Shown here piece after piece: positions 1-11,330 of a DNA stretch of 64,000 nt. A model generated the notes under the pieces. It did no database searches, was not told the DNA's origin, and saw only the letters and a program-made list of their open reading frames with translations. Position 1 is the stretch's first letter. Each line of letters begins with the position of its first letter. Both the position numbers and the translations under genes were made by a program. Origin of the DNA: Rhodotorula mucilaginosa (Eukaryota > Basidiomycota > Microbotryomycetes > Sporidiobolales > Sporidiobolaceae); the NCBI GenBank assembly GCA_034406715.1, contig CP137872.1, forward strand, positions 1,167,871-1,231,870, given 5' to 3'.

Positions 1-3000
1 ACCGCAGGCAGTGCCGTCCCCCTTCGTGGGAGAAGCGCGAGGGAAACAAGGCGATCAAGACGGAGCAGCAGCGCCGATCCGAGTCTTGATCGTGACGAGC
101 GAGTTGGCCGGACTGCACACCAACGGAGGAATCGGCACGGCCTTTTCCGAGCTCGCCCAGACACTTGCTGCAGCCGGGAACGGGCGAGAGTTCGAGACGA
201 CCATCCTCGTGACGCACCTCGAGGACAGCTTCCCGTTCAAGAAGCGCGAAAATGTCACCCAAGAGTAAAAGACGTTTCTCTCCCTCGTCGCGCCCGCGCC
301 GCCCGCAACTGACGCCCTCGTTCTTAGGTACGCTGCCAAGCATGTCGGGCTGCGATTCGTCCAACAGGAACCGCAGCCGTTCTGGCCGCAGGCGTGGACG
401 CCGACCGCTTCGATGCGGGTGTGGCGCTGGTTGCGCGCCCGCGACGGCCAGTTTGACGTCGTCCACTTTCCCGACAACACGGGCATCGGCTACTTTGCCA
501 CTCTCGGTAAATACCAGGGTCTCGCGCTCGAGCACACCCGGGTCGTCGTCGGCCTGCACGGCGCCGACGTCGAGTGGGCCGCCATGCTCAACAAGCGGTA
601 CCCGACCGACCGGTACGCGGTCGAACTCGGCGTCTTTGAACGCAGGACGGCGGAGCTGGCCGACGCGGTCGTCGCGCCGTCCGAGTACATGCTCGAGTAT
701 GTGCGGTCGAGGGGGTGGGCCGTCCCTACCAAATCGGCGTTCGTGATTCCCAACATTGTCCAACTGCCTCCCGTACCGCCGACCCGGACTCGGACGCCCG
801 CCCAAGTCAAGTACGGAGCGGCGAGCGACATGATCATCAAACCGATCACGGAACTGGTCTTTTTCGGCCGACTCGAGGAGCGCAAGGGGACGAGGATGTT
901 GATCCACGCGCTCGAAGATTTGTACTCGGACCCGGCCACCGCGGCGCGGATGGCCGGGATCCAAAAGATCACCTTTCTCGGACGGGATCAGCCCGACACG
1001 CGCACCCGGTCGCAGATGAGTCACCTGATCGCGGGCGGACTCGACGGGATCAAGGCGCACGGCGCCAACGCGAATGCGACGTTCGAGTACGAGTTCCTGA
1101 CCACGTTGGACCGCGACGCCGCCCTCGCGTACCTCCAACCCCCGCACCGCCTCGCGCTCCTGCCGTCCCTCGCCGACAACTCGCCGAGTACCGTGCTCGA
1201 ATGCATCGCGTACGGGATCCGGTTCGTCACCAGCAACGTCGGCGGGATCCCCGAACTCGTCCACCCGGACGATCGCGCGCAGGTGATTGTCTCGCCGCTC
1301 GCGAAAAGTTTTGCGAGAGACCTCGTCAAGGTCATGGATCGTCTCGCGACGAGTCCGTGGAAACCGGTCAGGGCCGCCCCCGAGACGCAGACGGCGGCGA
1401 AAGACTGGATCCAGTTTCACCATTGGCTCGTCGAGACGGCGCAGCCCCCGCCCCCGTCGTCTACTGCTAATAACGTCGCGCCACCGCCGACGCGGCGGCG
1501 CGGGCAGCCGCTCGTCAGCGTATGCATCACTCACTTTGAGCGGTCTCACCTCTTGCCGCAACTCCTCGACTCGCTCCTGCTCCAGACCGAGACCGACTTT
1601 GAGGTCATTCTCATCGACGACGGGTCGCCGACAGAGCAGATCCGCAGCGCGCTCGACGAGATCGACTCGCGCTACTTCCGAGGAGGCGGCGGCAACTCGA
1701 CTCGTGGCGGCTGGACTTTTCTGCGGACCGACAACGCCTACCTCGGCGAGGCGCGCAATCGTGCCGCACGTCGCGCACGCGGAGACTGGCTCCTTTTTCT
1801 TGACGACGACGACGTCCTGAAACCGCACGCGCTCGAGACGTTGCTCCGCGTCGCTCGCAAGACGGGGGCGTCGGCACTCTCGACGTGGCTCGACGAGTTT
1901 GCGAGCGACTCGTACCCGCTCGCGGAAAAGTACACCAACGGGACGATCGAACTGCCCCATCGGCGCACGTACTGGTTCCTCGGGCAGGAGCTCTCGGCCG
2001 GCTTGGTCGCCAACAGCTTTGGCTCGGGCAACATCTTTGTCACGCACGAGGCGTTTGCGCGCGTCGGCGGGTTCAGCACGTACCGCGACGTCGGCGGAGA
2101 GGATTGGGAGTTTTGGACCAAGTTGGCGCTCACGATCGGGACCGGCGCCGAAGAGAAACACCTTGTCGTGCCCGAGGAGCTCATCTTTGCTCGCAGTGAC
2201 CCCGCCCGCGATAGCATGGTGTGTCCCCCTCTTGGTTGCAAATCTGTGGAGACTTGATACTGACCCTCGGCCTCGCGCAGAAATTCTCGATGGACCCGTG
2301 GGACGCGCATTTCCGATCGGCGGTGCCGGTTCTGAACGATCCTCGCATCCAAGACCTCAACCTGGCGCATGGTCTCATGCTGCTCAAGAGCGCGGTCACG
2401 CGACCCTACGCGACGCCGCCCTTTGCCGATTCCACCGCCGACTTCCAGCTCACACAAGCCTGGAACGGCTGGACCTACTCGTTCCAGCGACTGCCGGCGG
2501 ATCCGAGCGAACTCGCCGAGTGGATGCCGTCGACCGGGTCCGACCAGCTCGGCATCGTCTCGCCCGACGCGCCCGAATTCATCATGGACTTGCACCACCT
2601 CCGGAAGCCCTATATCGACGACTCGACTCAGGCCGGCATGGTCTCGCGTCGAGGGGAGCGGTTCGCTGCGATCCGGTCCTTCAAGGCTCCGCGTACACTG
2701 CACGTCGCCGTCGACTTGACGTACCGATCCGAGCACGCCTGTGGCGACGGGACGCGGCTCTCGCTGATCCAGACTGGCGCCTCGGGAGAGCGAGCCGAGA
2801 CGCTCGTCGAGTACATGACGATGGATGAAGGGTTCGCCGAGTTTGTCGGCGCGACGACACTCCGCGCGGGCAATTCGCTGCACGTCGTGAGCGATCCGCT
2901 CGGAGACGACGAGTGTGACCGCGTCGAGGTGCACTTGCGGGTCACGCGGATCGAGGTCGAGAACCAGAGCTGGTCCCGCCTGGCTCGCCGTGCCGCACTC

Positions 3001-6000
3001 GCCGCGCACGAGGAGCGGGGACAAAGCGCCCAACAAGAGGATCGACCAGTCGAGACCAACTCGACGTGGACTCTGGTCCCGGTCGAACGGCCTTCGGAGG
3101 ACTCGATGTTTAACATTGCGCTGATCTTTGACCGCAACCGCTTCCCGCACGCCATGTCGGTCATCCGCTCGATCCAGCACTTTTCGGCTGGCTCGCGCAA
3201 ACTCGTCTTCCACCTGATCGCCACGATGGACACGCGGGACGAGCTCACAGAGTACTTTGCCGACACCGACATGACGTTGAAGCTCTACGACCACGGCCTG
3301 TGCGCCTACGTCGCGAAAGCTGTCCTGCCCTTTTCCGACCCCGAGATCCACGTCTCTGCCCACTGCAAGATGTTCCTGACCGAGATCATCAAGGACGCCG
3401 AACGCGTGCTGTACCTCGATACCGACACGACGGTCCTTTCGGATCTGTCTGCCTGCTACGACCGCCCGACCGACAACCCGGCAGCGCTCGTCTCGATGGC
3501 AGTCGACATGGGCGACGCGTGTCAAAACAACCCGAACGCATGCTGGCCAATCGGCATGCACTGGCGCGTGCCGCCCGGTCTCGAGTGTGGGAACGTCCCC
3601 GCTCGCCACGTCCCGAGTCGGCACGCTTCCGAGTCGTGCGCCGAAGAAGGCGAGCTCGAAACGCTCCAGGTCAACGGAGGTGTCGCACTCTTCGAGCTCG
3701 CGAGGATGCGGGATGCTGGCTTCCTTGAGCGCTACGTCCAGTCGATCGTCCACCACTACCAGCTCATGCGCAACGCGCCCGCGCGGTGGGGCGAGCAAGA
3801 CTTTATCAATTCGTTCTTTCGCTTGTACCCCGACGATCTCGAGTTCCTCCCCTGCGGCTGCAACTATCAGTGGTTCGGCGCTCGCCGCGAGGTCAAGTGC
3901 GGTGCTCAGCCTGTCCATATCGCTCACCATTGGTACGTTGCCGTTCAAGTCGCTTCTTGGTCAGGGTGCTGTCGAGTTGACGTGCCGTATCCCTCCACGC
4001 AGGGCTCACGGCATCGCGGCTCGGACAAAGGAGCCGTACAACGTTCTTTTTCACCATTTCGCCGACGATCGCGCCGGCGCTCCGTTACCGCCAGTGCCAG
4101 AGTTGTCGGCTTCGTTGCCGGGCGCACCGAACACCTCGACTATTCAGGTCGTCAACACCCGCAACTGTCCGCGGCAAGATCACGACTGCACTCCCGCCTT
4201 TGCTCCGAGCGAATTCGGTACCCCGGTCGTCGTCGTCTCGCGAATCCTTTCCGAAACGTTCGCCGCCGACCTGGTCGACTCGCTCGAATCGCAGACCTAT
4301 CCCAAGGTTGCGCACGTGGTCGCCAAGCGCTCCGAAGTGACCATACCGACTTCGACCTTTGAGCGGGGCGAACTCGTGCTCGGATCGGATCCCGAAGTCC
4401 AGTACGACGCGGTCTGCACTGCGTGCGGAGCTTTGGCGATGCCCAACGCGTCGTGCACTACTCCTCCGACTTCACCGCAAGATCGCAAGCACTACTTTGA
4501 TTGCGTTTGCGACTTGCCCGACCCGACGACCGCGTCGCTCGTCGAACTGGACGCGCTCGCTGCCCGCCGGGAAGAGCAGTCCTGGGTTCTGCATCTCGAC
4601 GACACGCAGCTCTTTGCCGACTCGGCGTCCCTCTCTCACCTCATGGCACGCGTCGACTCGACTCAAGACCTGATCCTCTTTCGAACGAACACGTCCAGCC
4701 GGGAGCAGGAGTCCGCGTACCGGAAAAAGATCCTACCGCGGTCGACCCTCGACGGCGTCGGATTCCTCTTCCACTCTTCGCACCTCGACCTCGCGAAATG
4801 GGACGCAAGCACGGGCTGCACCCGCTGGCGCTTGCTGAACCGACTCTCTTCCCGACTCCGAGTCAAGTGGATCGACACAGTCCCGATCATTGAACATCCA
4901 CTGCAGCGACACCTGCCTGTGACGACTCCCGACGACTTTAAAGTGTCGTTGATCATCCTCGAGACCCGCGGCAGACGTTCCTGGACGAACGAGCTCCTCC
5001 TGTCGCTTCAGATTCCCGAGTTCGACCCGCTCGTTGCCGAAATCATCGTGGCGTCGATCGACTCGCCCGAAGGTACCTACGGAGACGACGTGTTTGTGGC
5101 CAACTTGACCCCTGGCTCTGGCCTGGGAGAACTCGGAGCGCTGGCCGCATCCGAGAAGGTCCTGCTTCTCAGCGACAACGTCGCACTAGACAAGGTACAT
5201 TCCGGGCACCTACTTCGGTCTGTCGGGGGACAAGTGACTGACCCGTGCTCTTTGCAGACTGCCTTGACGGCACTCATCAATTTCCACCTCGACGAGCCGA
5301 ACCGACTGGTCGGCCTCTTTTCGGAAACCGAAAACGCAGGCGACTTTTCGCCGCCTCTCCCCACCACGGCCGAAACATTCGACGTCTTTTCCGACCCTGA
5401 CGCCCTCGTCGGAGGATCAACTTGGTCGCACCTCCTCCCGCGGACGTTGCTCACGGCTCGATCCACCCTCGAAGAACTCGCCGCCGTTCTGGACGAACAC
5501 GACGCCGCCGGTGGTGGCAACAGCGAGCCGATCCATCCTGTCTGTCACCCCATCCTCCTCTCGGCGCTGAGCGTCCGCGCGAGTGGTGGTCTCCCCCCGC
5601 TCCGGATCTTGCCCCCGCAGAAGAGCGTCACCGACCGCGTTTACGATTGTCGACAGCGCGGCTGGCCGAATGTGACGTACGGAGTCACCGCTGGTGATTG
5701 GGTTTTTGATGGCGACGCAGAAGGAGGCGAGGGCGCCAGTGTCGGCGGCACAGGGATGCTGCTCAACCGCGACGGCGACCCAGGCGCCGACGAGGCAGAG
5801 CCTCAGGACCTCGTCGAAGCGGCGGCTCGAGCCGAACTCTCATCGTCGAATCTCGATTCAGACCGCGGTGGTGATGGTGCGGGGACCGTAATGGGAGCGG
5901 GCGACGACCACGACGATGACGACCGGCCCACACTCGAGGCCTGCATCGCAGCCGTGGGCGACCTTCTCGGCTCGACCGCAGCGGACGAGTGGATCGTCTA

Positions 6001-6121
6001 CGGAGACCAAGTCGGCGTCGCGGGCGCGCAAGGAATGAAAGTCGGGATCGAACGGGCGAGCGAGATTGAGCCGTCTCGGTGGGAGGAGGCGAGATCGATG
6101 GGTCGGTGCTACCTGACCTGA
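1..6121 (+). CDS. Giant multi-domain glycosyltransferase, 5' end cut by the window
   Basis: Five exons fit one frame: <2-264, 328-2218, 2281-3932, 4003-5194, 5258-6121 (about 1,950 residues visible; start lies upstream). Order of modules, counted from the first visible codon: a GT-B/GT4-like domain (residues ~25-460; glycine-rich N-terminal loop TNGGIGTAFSEL, and a GT4-type nucleotide-sugar segment DNSPSTVLECIAYG); a GT2-like GT-A domain (~480-690; VSVCITHF start, metal motif FLDDDD, catalytic-type GEDWEFW); a beta-rich spacer (~740-970) that looks like a carbohydrate-binding fold; a GT8-like domain (~990-1250; FNIALIFD start, DxD motif YLDTDTTVL); and a C-terminal GT-A-like region (~1330-1950; HLDDTQLF). 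No signal peptide or membrane segment is visible in this part. Domain assignment is from motifs; acceptor and product are unknown, though a polysaccharide or protein-glycan synthase is likely. The intron at 5195-5257 is a multiple of three and could be retained. Confidence 0.85.
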
Positions 6122-8697: not shown

Positions 8698-9020
8698 TCT
8701 CATTGGCACTCCTCCCTTTTGCCTCCTCCCGCCTCCCCGACGCTTTCGCGCTCCTTCGGTCCAGAGGGCCTCAAAAGGAACTGCCGGCAAGCAAGTCGCT
8801 GGGGTTCGCGACTAGACGCGTGGCCAGTGCAGGCGGAGGGACGAGCGAGTCGGGGCCGGGGGATTTCTGCTTTTTCTGTGTTTTCGGGACATCATTGGCG
8901 ACGACGACGATGACGGTGTTGTAACGGGGTCTTTTTACCATTTACCCATACTTTCGCGTATTCTTCTTTTTTACACCTCTTTGCACCACGTCGGACGGGT
9001 GGAAAGCAAGGCCCGCGGAG
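8698..9020. other. Intergenic stretch
   Basis: 323 bp between the zinc-finger gene and the F-box gene, pyrimidine-rich on its left. It must hold the 3' end of the first gene and the promoter of the second. No conserved frame or RNA gene was seen. Confidence 0.5.
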
Positions 9021-11330
9021 ATGAGCGGAAGCAGAGCCGAGAGGCCTTCGTCATATCGTCGCGGCTCTTCCGAGTTCTCACTCGTCACGCACTCGAACAT
9101 GCGACGAAAGAGGATGACTACGCTGCCACCTGAACTGGTCTCGCTGTGCTTGTCCCACCTGGACCCGACCGATCGCGCCACCGTGCCGACTCTACTCTCT
9201 TGCTCGCTCGTGTCGTCTTCCTTCCGAGCCCTCGCCACCGCCAACTCGCTCTGGAGACAGATCGCAGACGCTCACTACCACCAATACAGGGTCCCTTCCC
9301 GGAGCCGACTCGATGAATTCGAGAGGGACGCGTTTCGGTATTACGCCTCGCGGGCGAGAAAGGATCAGAGGGCGACCGAGATTGTCAAGGAGATTCAGAG
9401 GCCGAAGGACCGGATCCCGTTGATTGAAGAACTGCGCAGTAACTCGGCACTCGGCAGCGAGGTCATCGAGAACCCCAAGTGGACCGCGGGCGGCGACTAT
9501 GCGTTCACGGAGCAGAACGCCCCCGAGGATTGGTTGAGTTTGAGGTATTGGGCGGCCGAGTGTCGCAAGGCTTTGCTTAGGGACGAAGCGCTCCGTCTCT
9601 GGAGAGACATTTCGATTCGCTCCGTCGCCAACGCCGACGCCGACGATGCCGACAACTCGAACGACCAGATGGAAGAAGACCTCGAACGCGGGCTCGATGC
9701 GTTCTCGGCGTTCCGGGGACTCGACCCGGCTCGGTTGCCGCGGGAGCGGTACGACATGTCGAACCATCCTCGTTTGCTCGAAGCGACGGCGGTTCCCCCA
9801 CCCCATTTTACGGGCGTCCGCCTTCTCGAATGGCTCGCAACCCAAGTCGTCGACTATATGAAGTCGATCGGGCTCGAGCCCGCTCGCGAAGGCGGGTTTC
9901 ACTCGCTCGACAACCACTATGTCGAACTCGTGTGGCGGCGCGCTGCCGCTACACCGGACGGACCGCAGAACGAAGGGACGTTGCCGATGACGCTCGTTCA
10001 CATCTTTTGTGCGCTCGTGAGGCGTCTGCCCGTCGCGCGACGATTAGGCATCCGCGCTCAGATGATTGGGTACCCGGGGACCGTCCTCGCCGGGTTGAGT
10101 TATCGTCGGCGCGGCGGCGGCGGCGGCGGCGGCGAGGAGGAGGACCGCGAACGCGACCGCGCGCGGATCTATATCAACGTGTTTGGCGAGGGCAAGATCC
10201 TCAGTCCGGAACGACTCCGAGCCATGCTCGGCGCGATGGGTCAAGCCGACTCGGAACAAGACTTTCTCGCACCGGCCTCGGCTCGAGAAATGGTGCGTCC
10301 TCCTTTCTCAACAACGCGGCCTTCTGCCCTTTGTCAAGCTGACGAGATTGGGGGTTTCGCTCGGCAGTGTCTCCGGGTCGCGCGCAACATTCTCACTTCG
10401 GTCCGCGCAGGGGACCGGACCATTGGCGTCCCGATCCCGCACGAACTCTCGGTCGAGGCGCTGTACTCGGTCTCGCACGCCCTTTTCCTCTTTACGAGTC
10501 CTCACGCGTTGCTCGATCGTGATCGTGATCGCCGTGAGGAGGAGGAGGACGTTCCCGCCGCTGTGGGGGCCGACACGCTCCAATATGCGGAATGGCTCGA
10601 ATCCCTCGTCCAGAGCGAATATCCGCTCGACGTCTCGTACCTCTCCGAGACCGTCGCTCCCTTGTTACCGCCGCCCGATCGACAAGCGCGGTTGCGGAGC
10701 TTGTGCGCCGCGATCCGCGAGGAAGACGCCACCCCCAAAGAACCGAAAGTCGTCAACGCCGAGATCAAGTGGCCGATCGGACACGTGTTTCGCCATCGCT
10801 TGTTTGGTTACCTGGCCATCACGCGCGGGTTCGACTACCGCTGCGAAGCCGGCGAGCAGTGTATGTTTTCAGGCGTGTTTCTCGGGAGCGTCTCCCTTGA
10901 GAGGGCGAAGAAAACCTAACAGGCTCTTTGTGTACGTACAGGGATCCGTCAAATGCGCGTCGATACGTTACCCTACGGGCGACATCAACCGTTCTACCAC
11001 GTCGTAAGCTGCGCGCGCGATGGATTTACCCTCTTGATGCTCCGTCGTCGCCCCAGGAATTGAATTTGGGCTGATTCCGAGCCCCCTTTTTTGGGTCCCG
11101 TTCCATAGGTCGTCGAGGACGGCTCGGCCCGGTATGTCGCGCAGGAAAACATCACCGACGCGTCGCAGTACCCGGTCTCGGACGCCGAAGTCGACTCGTT
11201 CCTCGAGCAGGAATCGCTCGGGCGCTACTTTCGTTGCCGCAAGAGGGTTCACGCCGGCGCTGGCGTTGGGAGGTGGGTGTTTGTGCCGAGCGAGCAGGTC
11301 GCGGCAGAGTATCCTGAATCGGGGCCCTAG
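9021..11330 (+). CDS. FBXO21-like F-box protein with SirB1/transglutaminase-like and YccV domains
   Basis: Exons 9021-10292, 10368-10860, 10942-11003 and 11109-11330 give 682 aa. An F-box lies at ~30-80 (LPPELVSLCLSHLDPTDR...SLWRQIADAHY). The centre (~270-520) matches the SirB1/transglutaminase-like region of FBXO21, with LDNHYVELVWRR and TLVHIFCALVRRL. The C-terminus is a YccV/HspQ-like domain: VFRHRLFGYLAITRGFDYRC, then W-I-R-Q-M, LPYGRHQPFYHV and ARYVAQENI, finishing with EYP. FBXO21 is a substrate receptor of SCF ubiquitin ligases; the YccV-like part binds hemimethylated DNA or acts in proteolysis in bacteria. The first intron (75 nt) is in frame and may be retained in annotation, but its splice sites and branch sequence are good. 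Start is the first ATG; an ATG at 9099 is an alternative. Confidence 0.88.

Follow-up and report, generated by a model that had tools for sequence, protein, structure and literature searches.

Fungal wall and capsule glycans are made mostly by separate single-domain transferases, and for many of them we know of no synthase. A gene at the start of a 64,000-nucleotide stretch of Rhodotorula mucilaginosa DNA (referred to here as the window) raises the question of whether one fungal polypeptide carries a series of different glycosyltransferase (GT) modules and, if so, what such a chain would build.

One Spliced Reading Frame

A first-pass annotation of this DNA had described a single spliced frame of about 1,950 codons. 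Splicing out four introns gave a frame of 1,953 codons plus a stop, in which the five joined exons contain no internal stop and which is closed by the TGA at 6119-6121. The window begins inside the gene, so the CDS is open at its 5' end. The gene model is as follows, with the evidence for each intron in brackets:

2..6121, + strand: spliced CDS, 1,953 codons plus stop, 5' end beyond the window
2-264, 328-2218, 2281-3932, 4003-5194 and 5258-6121, + strand: exons of the CDS
265..327, + strand: intron 1, 63 nt (reading frame, homology, splice and branch signals)
2219..2280, + strand: intron 2, 62 nt (reading frame, lengthened profile, splice and branch signals)
3933..4002, + strand: intron 3, 70 nt, inside the GT8 match (reading frame, splice and branch signals)
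5195..5257, + strand: intron 4, 63 nt, in frame and stop-free (splice signals)

Each of the introns begins with GT, ends with AG and contains a branch-like motif, CTGAC or TTGAC, 15-22 nt from its 3' end. Against a profile of 39 relatives, the protein scored 541.0 bits with intron 1 spliced and 523.3 bits with it kept; if kept, this intron also brings a stop, and an alternative acceptor broke the frame and lowered the score to 28.5 bits. As intron 4 is in frame and stop-free, its removal is argued by splice signals only. Coding periodicity runs through the whole frame, GC3 being higher than GC2 in 20 of 20 successive 100-codon blocks (the last one shorter). Within this one frame GT4, GT2 and GT8 all scored above their Pfam cut-offs, in agreement with the earlier proposal of one polypeptide with three recognizable GT modules.

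Domains, Catalytic Residues and Predicted Fold of the GT4-GT2 Half

The first half of the protein contains these features:

77..1336, + strand: GT4 (GT-B) module, about aa 26-424, split by intron 265-327 (PF13439, PF13579 and PF00534 above cut-off; fold)
1175..1201, + strand: EX7E motif of GT4, here D-x7-E, aa 371-379 (alignment to 39 relatives)
1517..2218, + strand: GT2 (GT-A) module, Pfam match aa 485-691, extending through the last residue of exon 2, aa 718 (PF00535; fold)
1802..1810, + strand: DDD of GT2, aa 580-582 (D580 and D582 in 39 of 39 relatives, D581 in 38 of 39)
2099..2104, + strand: ED of GT2, aa 679-680 (E679 in 34 of 39 relatives, D680 in 39 of 39)

The GT4 Pfam match covers aa 42-424 with 56.6 bits (cut-off 28.5), and PF00535 matched the GT2 module with 83.4 bits (cut-off 23.3). 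We considered the catalytic residues with roles taken from knowledge of the two families. In GT4, the lysine K274 is kept and is the same in all 39 relatives, R269 is shared with 37, and the second place of EX7E is glutamate in the fungus (E379) as in 37 relatives. The first place is aspartate in the fungus (D371), a residue found there in nine relatives, with glutamate in the other 30. D518 of GT2 is identical in all 39 relatives. The motifs DDDD and GEDWEFW, reported previously for GT2, were both found in the translated frame. The first-pass annotation had named loss of catalytic motifs in relatives as the sign of decayed domains; the GT4 and GT2 motifs are conserved across the 39 relatives, which argues against decay of those two modules, and the retention of their catalytic residues suggests that the GT4-GT2 half is probably enzymatically active. 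At aa 583 (window 1811-1813) the fungal GT2 reads DDDD, versus DDDN in 39 of 39 relatives, and this aspartate in place of asparagine could bear on donor choice.

A structure model of exon 2 (aa 89-718), built with 35 aligned relatives, had a pLDDT of 85.4 and a pTM of 0.86. In the PDB, Foldseek matched the GT-B part to GlgM (6tvp; TM 0.60, normalized by target length); for the GT-A part the matches were GT2 enzymes. Together, the quality of this model and its fold matches support the predicted placement of a GT-B beside a GT-A fold, as had been claimed. By sequence, the GT2 part also matched chondroitin synthase (E 4e-8) and other GT2 enzymes in the PDB. Over the whole length the best match was K4 chondroitin synthase (2z86), with a TM of only about 0.30, indicating that the two-domain arrangement differs from that of this enzyme. 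Giant-virus proteins, long and with multiple GT modules, were among the viral models matched, for which query-based TM values were mostly below 0.35.

Relatives of the GT4-GT2 Half and Their Loci

The fungal GT4-GT2 half matched the profile of 39 relatives with 541 bits (E about 1e-165) over profile positions 3-620 of 629, and judged from its sequence it belongs to a widespread bacterial two-domain glycosyltransferase type. The module order had been put forward as lacking a known fungal precedent; novelty does not hold for the first two modules, as GT4-GT2 alone is already one bacterial enzyme type. A tblastn search with aa 26-962 against plasmids returned 28 records, all less than 60% identical; the 20 of them that were listed cover the GT4-GT2 part only. 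A genome scan identified at least 260 relatives, with 80 loci from many phyla among the matches listed, and three viral contigs carry a GT4-GT2 relative; phages gave no match for aa 26-962.

Enzymes of this kind occur in numerous slime- or capsule-producing bacteria, and their genes often lie beside polysaccharide genes. The gene for a 750-aa relative from Azospirillum is beside galE, an FkbM methyltransferase and further glycosyltransferases, and that for a 740-aa relative from Enterobacter is beside GtrA, a pyruvyl transferase, an acyltransferase and glycosyltransferases, together with insertion sequences. In addition, 20 neighbor ORFs were scanned across five loci. These included a priming sugar transferase, an ABC transporter and two GT4 at one locus (L006), GT4-type and GT2 ORFs at another (L024), a pyruvyl transferase at L010 and a GT4 at L004, and the remaining ORFs belonged to unrelated families or to none. 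Two viral contigs (L084, L085) encode a full GT4-GT2 protein that groups with Klebsiella and Raoultella rows, and a D5_N/Pox_D5 primase-like ORF lies near the GT4-GT2 gene of L010; based on these observations, the bacterial gene may be carried by mobile elements.

Longer bacterial chains were also observed. A 1,930-aa ORF of Verrucomicrobiales (L025:6891-12680), which extends to within two bases of the locus end, has GT4 and four GT2 stretches, and an ORF of Bacteroidetes (L036:6654-11420) combines two GT2 stretches with a GT4 match below threshold and carries TPR repeats at its C-terminus. No GT8 match was found in the five long bacterial ORFs scanned, and the prokaryotic, plasmid and viral searches produced no GT4-GT2-GT8 fusion. 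The linker and GT8 had no match in plasmids, in any of 20 genomes with GT4-GT2 relatives or in any of 199 genomes of the phylum of G020, and the C-terminal part had none in 187 genomes of the phylum of G001, in searches run without a positive control. Neither GT8 nor the C-terminal part matched the viral contigs, where single-protein scans reach close relatives only, and none of the linker, GT8, CT1 and CT2 (see below) had a match at E up to 1 among ORFs of at least 150 aa in 86 loci.

Phylogenetic analysis of 40 rows grouped the fungal sequence with 16 rows, mostly Pseudomonadota (support 91/96; 95/88 for the 16 alone). The tree was midpoint rooted and contained no eukaryotic row other than the fungal one, and the fungal branch (1.98) was flagged as long. 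Acquisition of the GT4-GT2 half by transfer from bacteria is the likeliest reading of these comparisons, which covered prokaryotic, plasmid and viral sequences.

The GT8 Module and the C-terminal Region

More than 1,200 further codons follow GT2, and the bacterial-type two-domain enzyme is thus enlarged in the fungus. They encode the following:

2359..3081, + strand: linker, about aa 745-985 (no Pfam match at E up to 5)
3112..4066, + strand: GT8 module, Pfam match aa 996-1269, extending to about aa 1290, split by intron 3933-4002 (PF01501)
3418..3426, + strand: DTD of GT8, aa 1098-1100 (pairs with the LgtC DID in a PDB alignment of low significance, E 0.077)
4199..4936, + strand: CT1, weakly GT2-like, about aa 1335-1580, with HLDDTQ (DD at aa 1468-1469) (GT2 profile)
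4943..5749, + strand: CT2, about aa 1583-1830, with SDN at aa 1659-1661, split by intron 5195-5257

PF01501 matched GT8 with 42.6 bits in the full protein and 48.8 bits when the module was searched alone (cut-off 24.3), and the previously noted DTDTTVL motif is present. Comparison with the PDB gave only weak matches, to LgtC and WbbM (E about 0.08), with the DXD aligned. Histidines lie around aa 1264-1271 and would be candidates for the C-terminal metal-binding histidine of the GT8 family. On a profile of 93 GT2 domains the linker produced no score, and the score of GT8 was reached by 113 of 300 shuffles. An AlphaFold model of exon 3, built from the single sequence without relatives, had a pLDDT of 37 and was discarded.

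The first-pass annotation had also proposed a fourth, GT-A-like module at the C-terminus. CT1 (aa 1301-1585) scored 6.7 bits on the 93-domain GT2 profile, above all 300 shuffles (highest 4.8). However, its hhalign probability against GT2 was only 11.7, over 24 columns, and no Pfam family reached its cut-off in the C-terminal region, the best being Fringe (E 0.057; 13.2 versus 21 bits). With scores as weak as these, we treat the fourth module as a lead rather than a finding. The 500 residues after GT8 had one match in the PDB, at chance level (E 0.39), and CT2 had no Pfam match at E up to 5 and no score on the GT2 profile. A suspected resemblance of CT2 to GT64 was rejected, as PF09258 was unmatched at E up to 5; a PF09258 scan of 198 genomes gave one weak locus, which was set aside. 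The internal similarity of CT1 to GT2, 48% across a stretch of 25 residues (E 0.028), was too weak to claim kinship.

Genomic Setting and Alternative Explanations

Twenty other frames of the window were scanned, and several had matches to families of eukaryotic or fungal type: DBP10CT, SIR2, F-box, Jumonji helical domain, mevalonate diphosphate decarboxylase and MAGE. These genes and the style of the introns point to a high-GC fungus as the host. No polysaccharide biosynthesis genes were among these 20 frames, as expected for a eukaryote, and a bacterial-mode tRNA scan and an Rfam search of the window found nothing. One frame (8925-10916, + strand) combines an F-box, a transglutaminase-like core and a weak, below cut-off YccV-like match, a known-looking eukaryotic combination.

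As the relatives found for the GT4-GT2 half are bacterial, we considered whether a bacterial gene had been joined to a fungal contig by contamination or a chimeric assembly. This is extremely improbable: introns sit within the bacterial-type part itself, GC is steady at 0.59 to 0.66 across the window, and the window's remaining genes resemble those of fungi (DBP10 helicase, Sir2, F-box, Jumonji helical domain and mevalonate diphosphate decarboxylase). A different possibility is that the locus comprises two or more genes, with GT4-GT2 ending at the stop at 2255-2257, where the frame does end if intron 2 is unspliced, and a second gene with GT8 and the C-terminal part starting in exon 3. The first profile (39 relatives) does not discriminate at this splice (541.0 bits spliced, 540.4 kept and 542.6 for exon 2 alone), and a donor two bases on gave 541.3 bits on it, but shifted the frame. 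By contrast, a profile lengthened at its C-terminus gave 567.6 bits spliced, 560.5 if the protein ended at the stop and 558.0 with the intron kept, favoring the splice by 7 to 10 bits, 7 of them over the stop. Intron 2 also has good splice and branch signals, and exon 3 opens a few dozen bases after the stop, leaving no space for a promoter. We consider separate genes improbable.

It is also conceivable that the protein is partly decayed or scaffold-like, such that GT4, GT2 and perhaps GT8 are active and the C-terminal GT-A-like parts are inactive and bind an acceptor or partners. CT1 is very divergent, and CT2 has no recognizable family and has SDN where an acidic motif might be expected of GT-A enzymes. 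However, the reading frame and the GC3 bias persist to the stop, CT1 retains an LDD motif, and a missing family match is not evidence of inactivity. We regard this explanation as rather unlikely, though less so than separate genes.

Proposed Function

On balance, we favor the interpretation that this one fungal gene encodes a multi-catalytic glycosyltransferase with a bacterial-type GT4-GT2 core, and that the chain would build a short or repeating glycan. This interpretation draws on the linkage of the modules in one frame, three family identities, the catalytic residues of two modules and the GT4-GT2 fold; the weak CT1 signal, the unassigned linker and CT2, and the D583 replacement speak against it. 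Most likely the protein works as one chain that transfers two to four sugars successively onto a glycan of the surface or wall, with two or three transfers, by GT4, GT2 and next GT8, as the likeliest number. GT4 enzymes are retaining, GT2 enzymes inverting and GT8 enzymes retaining as a family. As in the bacterial enzyme, GT4 (GT-B) would transfer one sugar and GT2 (GT-A) then a different one; GT8 would supply the third, and the C-terminal region may transfer or bind a fourth. Destined for the cell surface or wall, the product would be either a short hetero-oligosaccharide or a glycan that is repeating or capped. We infer this action in turn, the sugars and the acceptor, and with them the "assembly line" reading suggested earlier; the activity of GT8 and the C-terminal region, as well as the location of the enzyme, are likewise put forward conditionally.

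The Golgi lumen is a possible location, behind an anchor lying outside the window; no transmembrane stretch occurs in the part inside the window, where 19-residue hydropathy peaks at 1.45. The GT4-GT2 half has two cysteines in 719 residues (0.28 per 100), below all 43 of 43 relatives (0.31-2.67). GT8 and CT1 have 18 in 595 residues (3.28 and 2.76 per 100, respectively), and seven other frames of the window have 0.93 per 100 when pooled, one of them 0.32. There are 11 sequons against 6.5 expected, a number reached by 5.4% of shuffles. The cysteine and sequon counts may lean slightly towards an oxidising lumen but decide nothing. A fuller scenario, in which the fungus captured a capsule-type GT4-GT2, moved it to the secretory lumen and added GT8 and a new GT-A-like module, yielding a single-chain assembly line that builds a glycan in three or more steps and has no counterpart described in fungi, seems to us unlikely.

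The unusual feature is that a fungal chromosome encodes the GT4-GT2 pair and has it fused to GT8 and further regions; no description of a fungal GT4-GT2-GT8 protein was among the open-licence papers listed in our literature searches. A single gene that adds further transferases to a bacterial-type two-step core would give quick access to an unknown fungal glycan, and would be a case of a eukaryote taking up and enlarging a bacterial carbohydrate enzyme.

Comparison with Known Systems

The closest comparisons are the plasmid proteins WP_237908309.1 (Azospirillum brasilense) and WP_023312630.1 (Enterobacter), which have the same GT4-GT2 order over their whole length, are 31-39% identical and have catalytic residues as in the fungus. 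Unlike the fungal protein, they are about 740-750 aa long, with no intron and without GT8 or the C-terminal region. The Verrucomicrobiales ORF is a chain of similar length with many GT modules, the first two of the same kind, but its further modules are GT2 where the fungus has GT8. K4 chondroitin synthase (2z86) and heparosan synthase 2 have two transferases per chain, as in the fungal half, although theirs are two GT-A domains rather than GT-B and GT-A.

Among eukaryotes, LARGE1 consists of GT8 and a second GT domain. It is a multi-GT chain reported to make an alternating glycan; its partner domain is a different one and it has no GT4-GT2 half, and we liken it to the fungal protein by module type. 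A064R of chlorella virus PBCV-1 is reported to be one polypeptide that carries out successive transfers in vitro; at 638 aa, with two rhamnosyltransferases and a methyltransferase, it differs from the fungal protein in size and in module types (PMC9614988).
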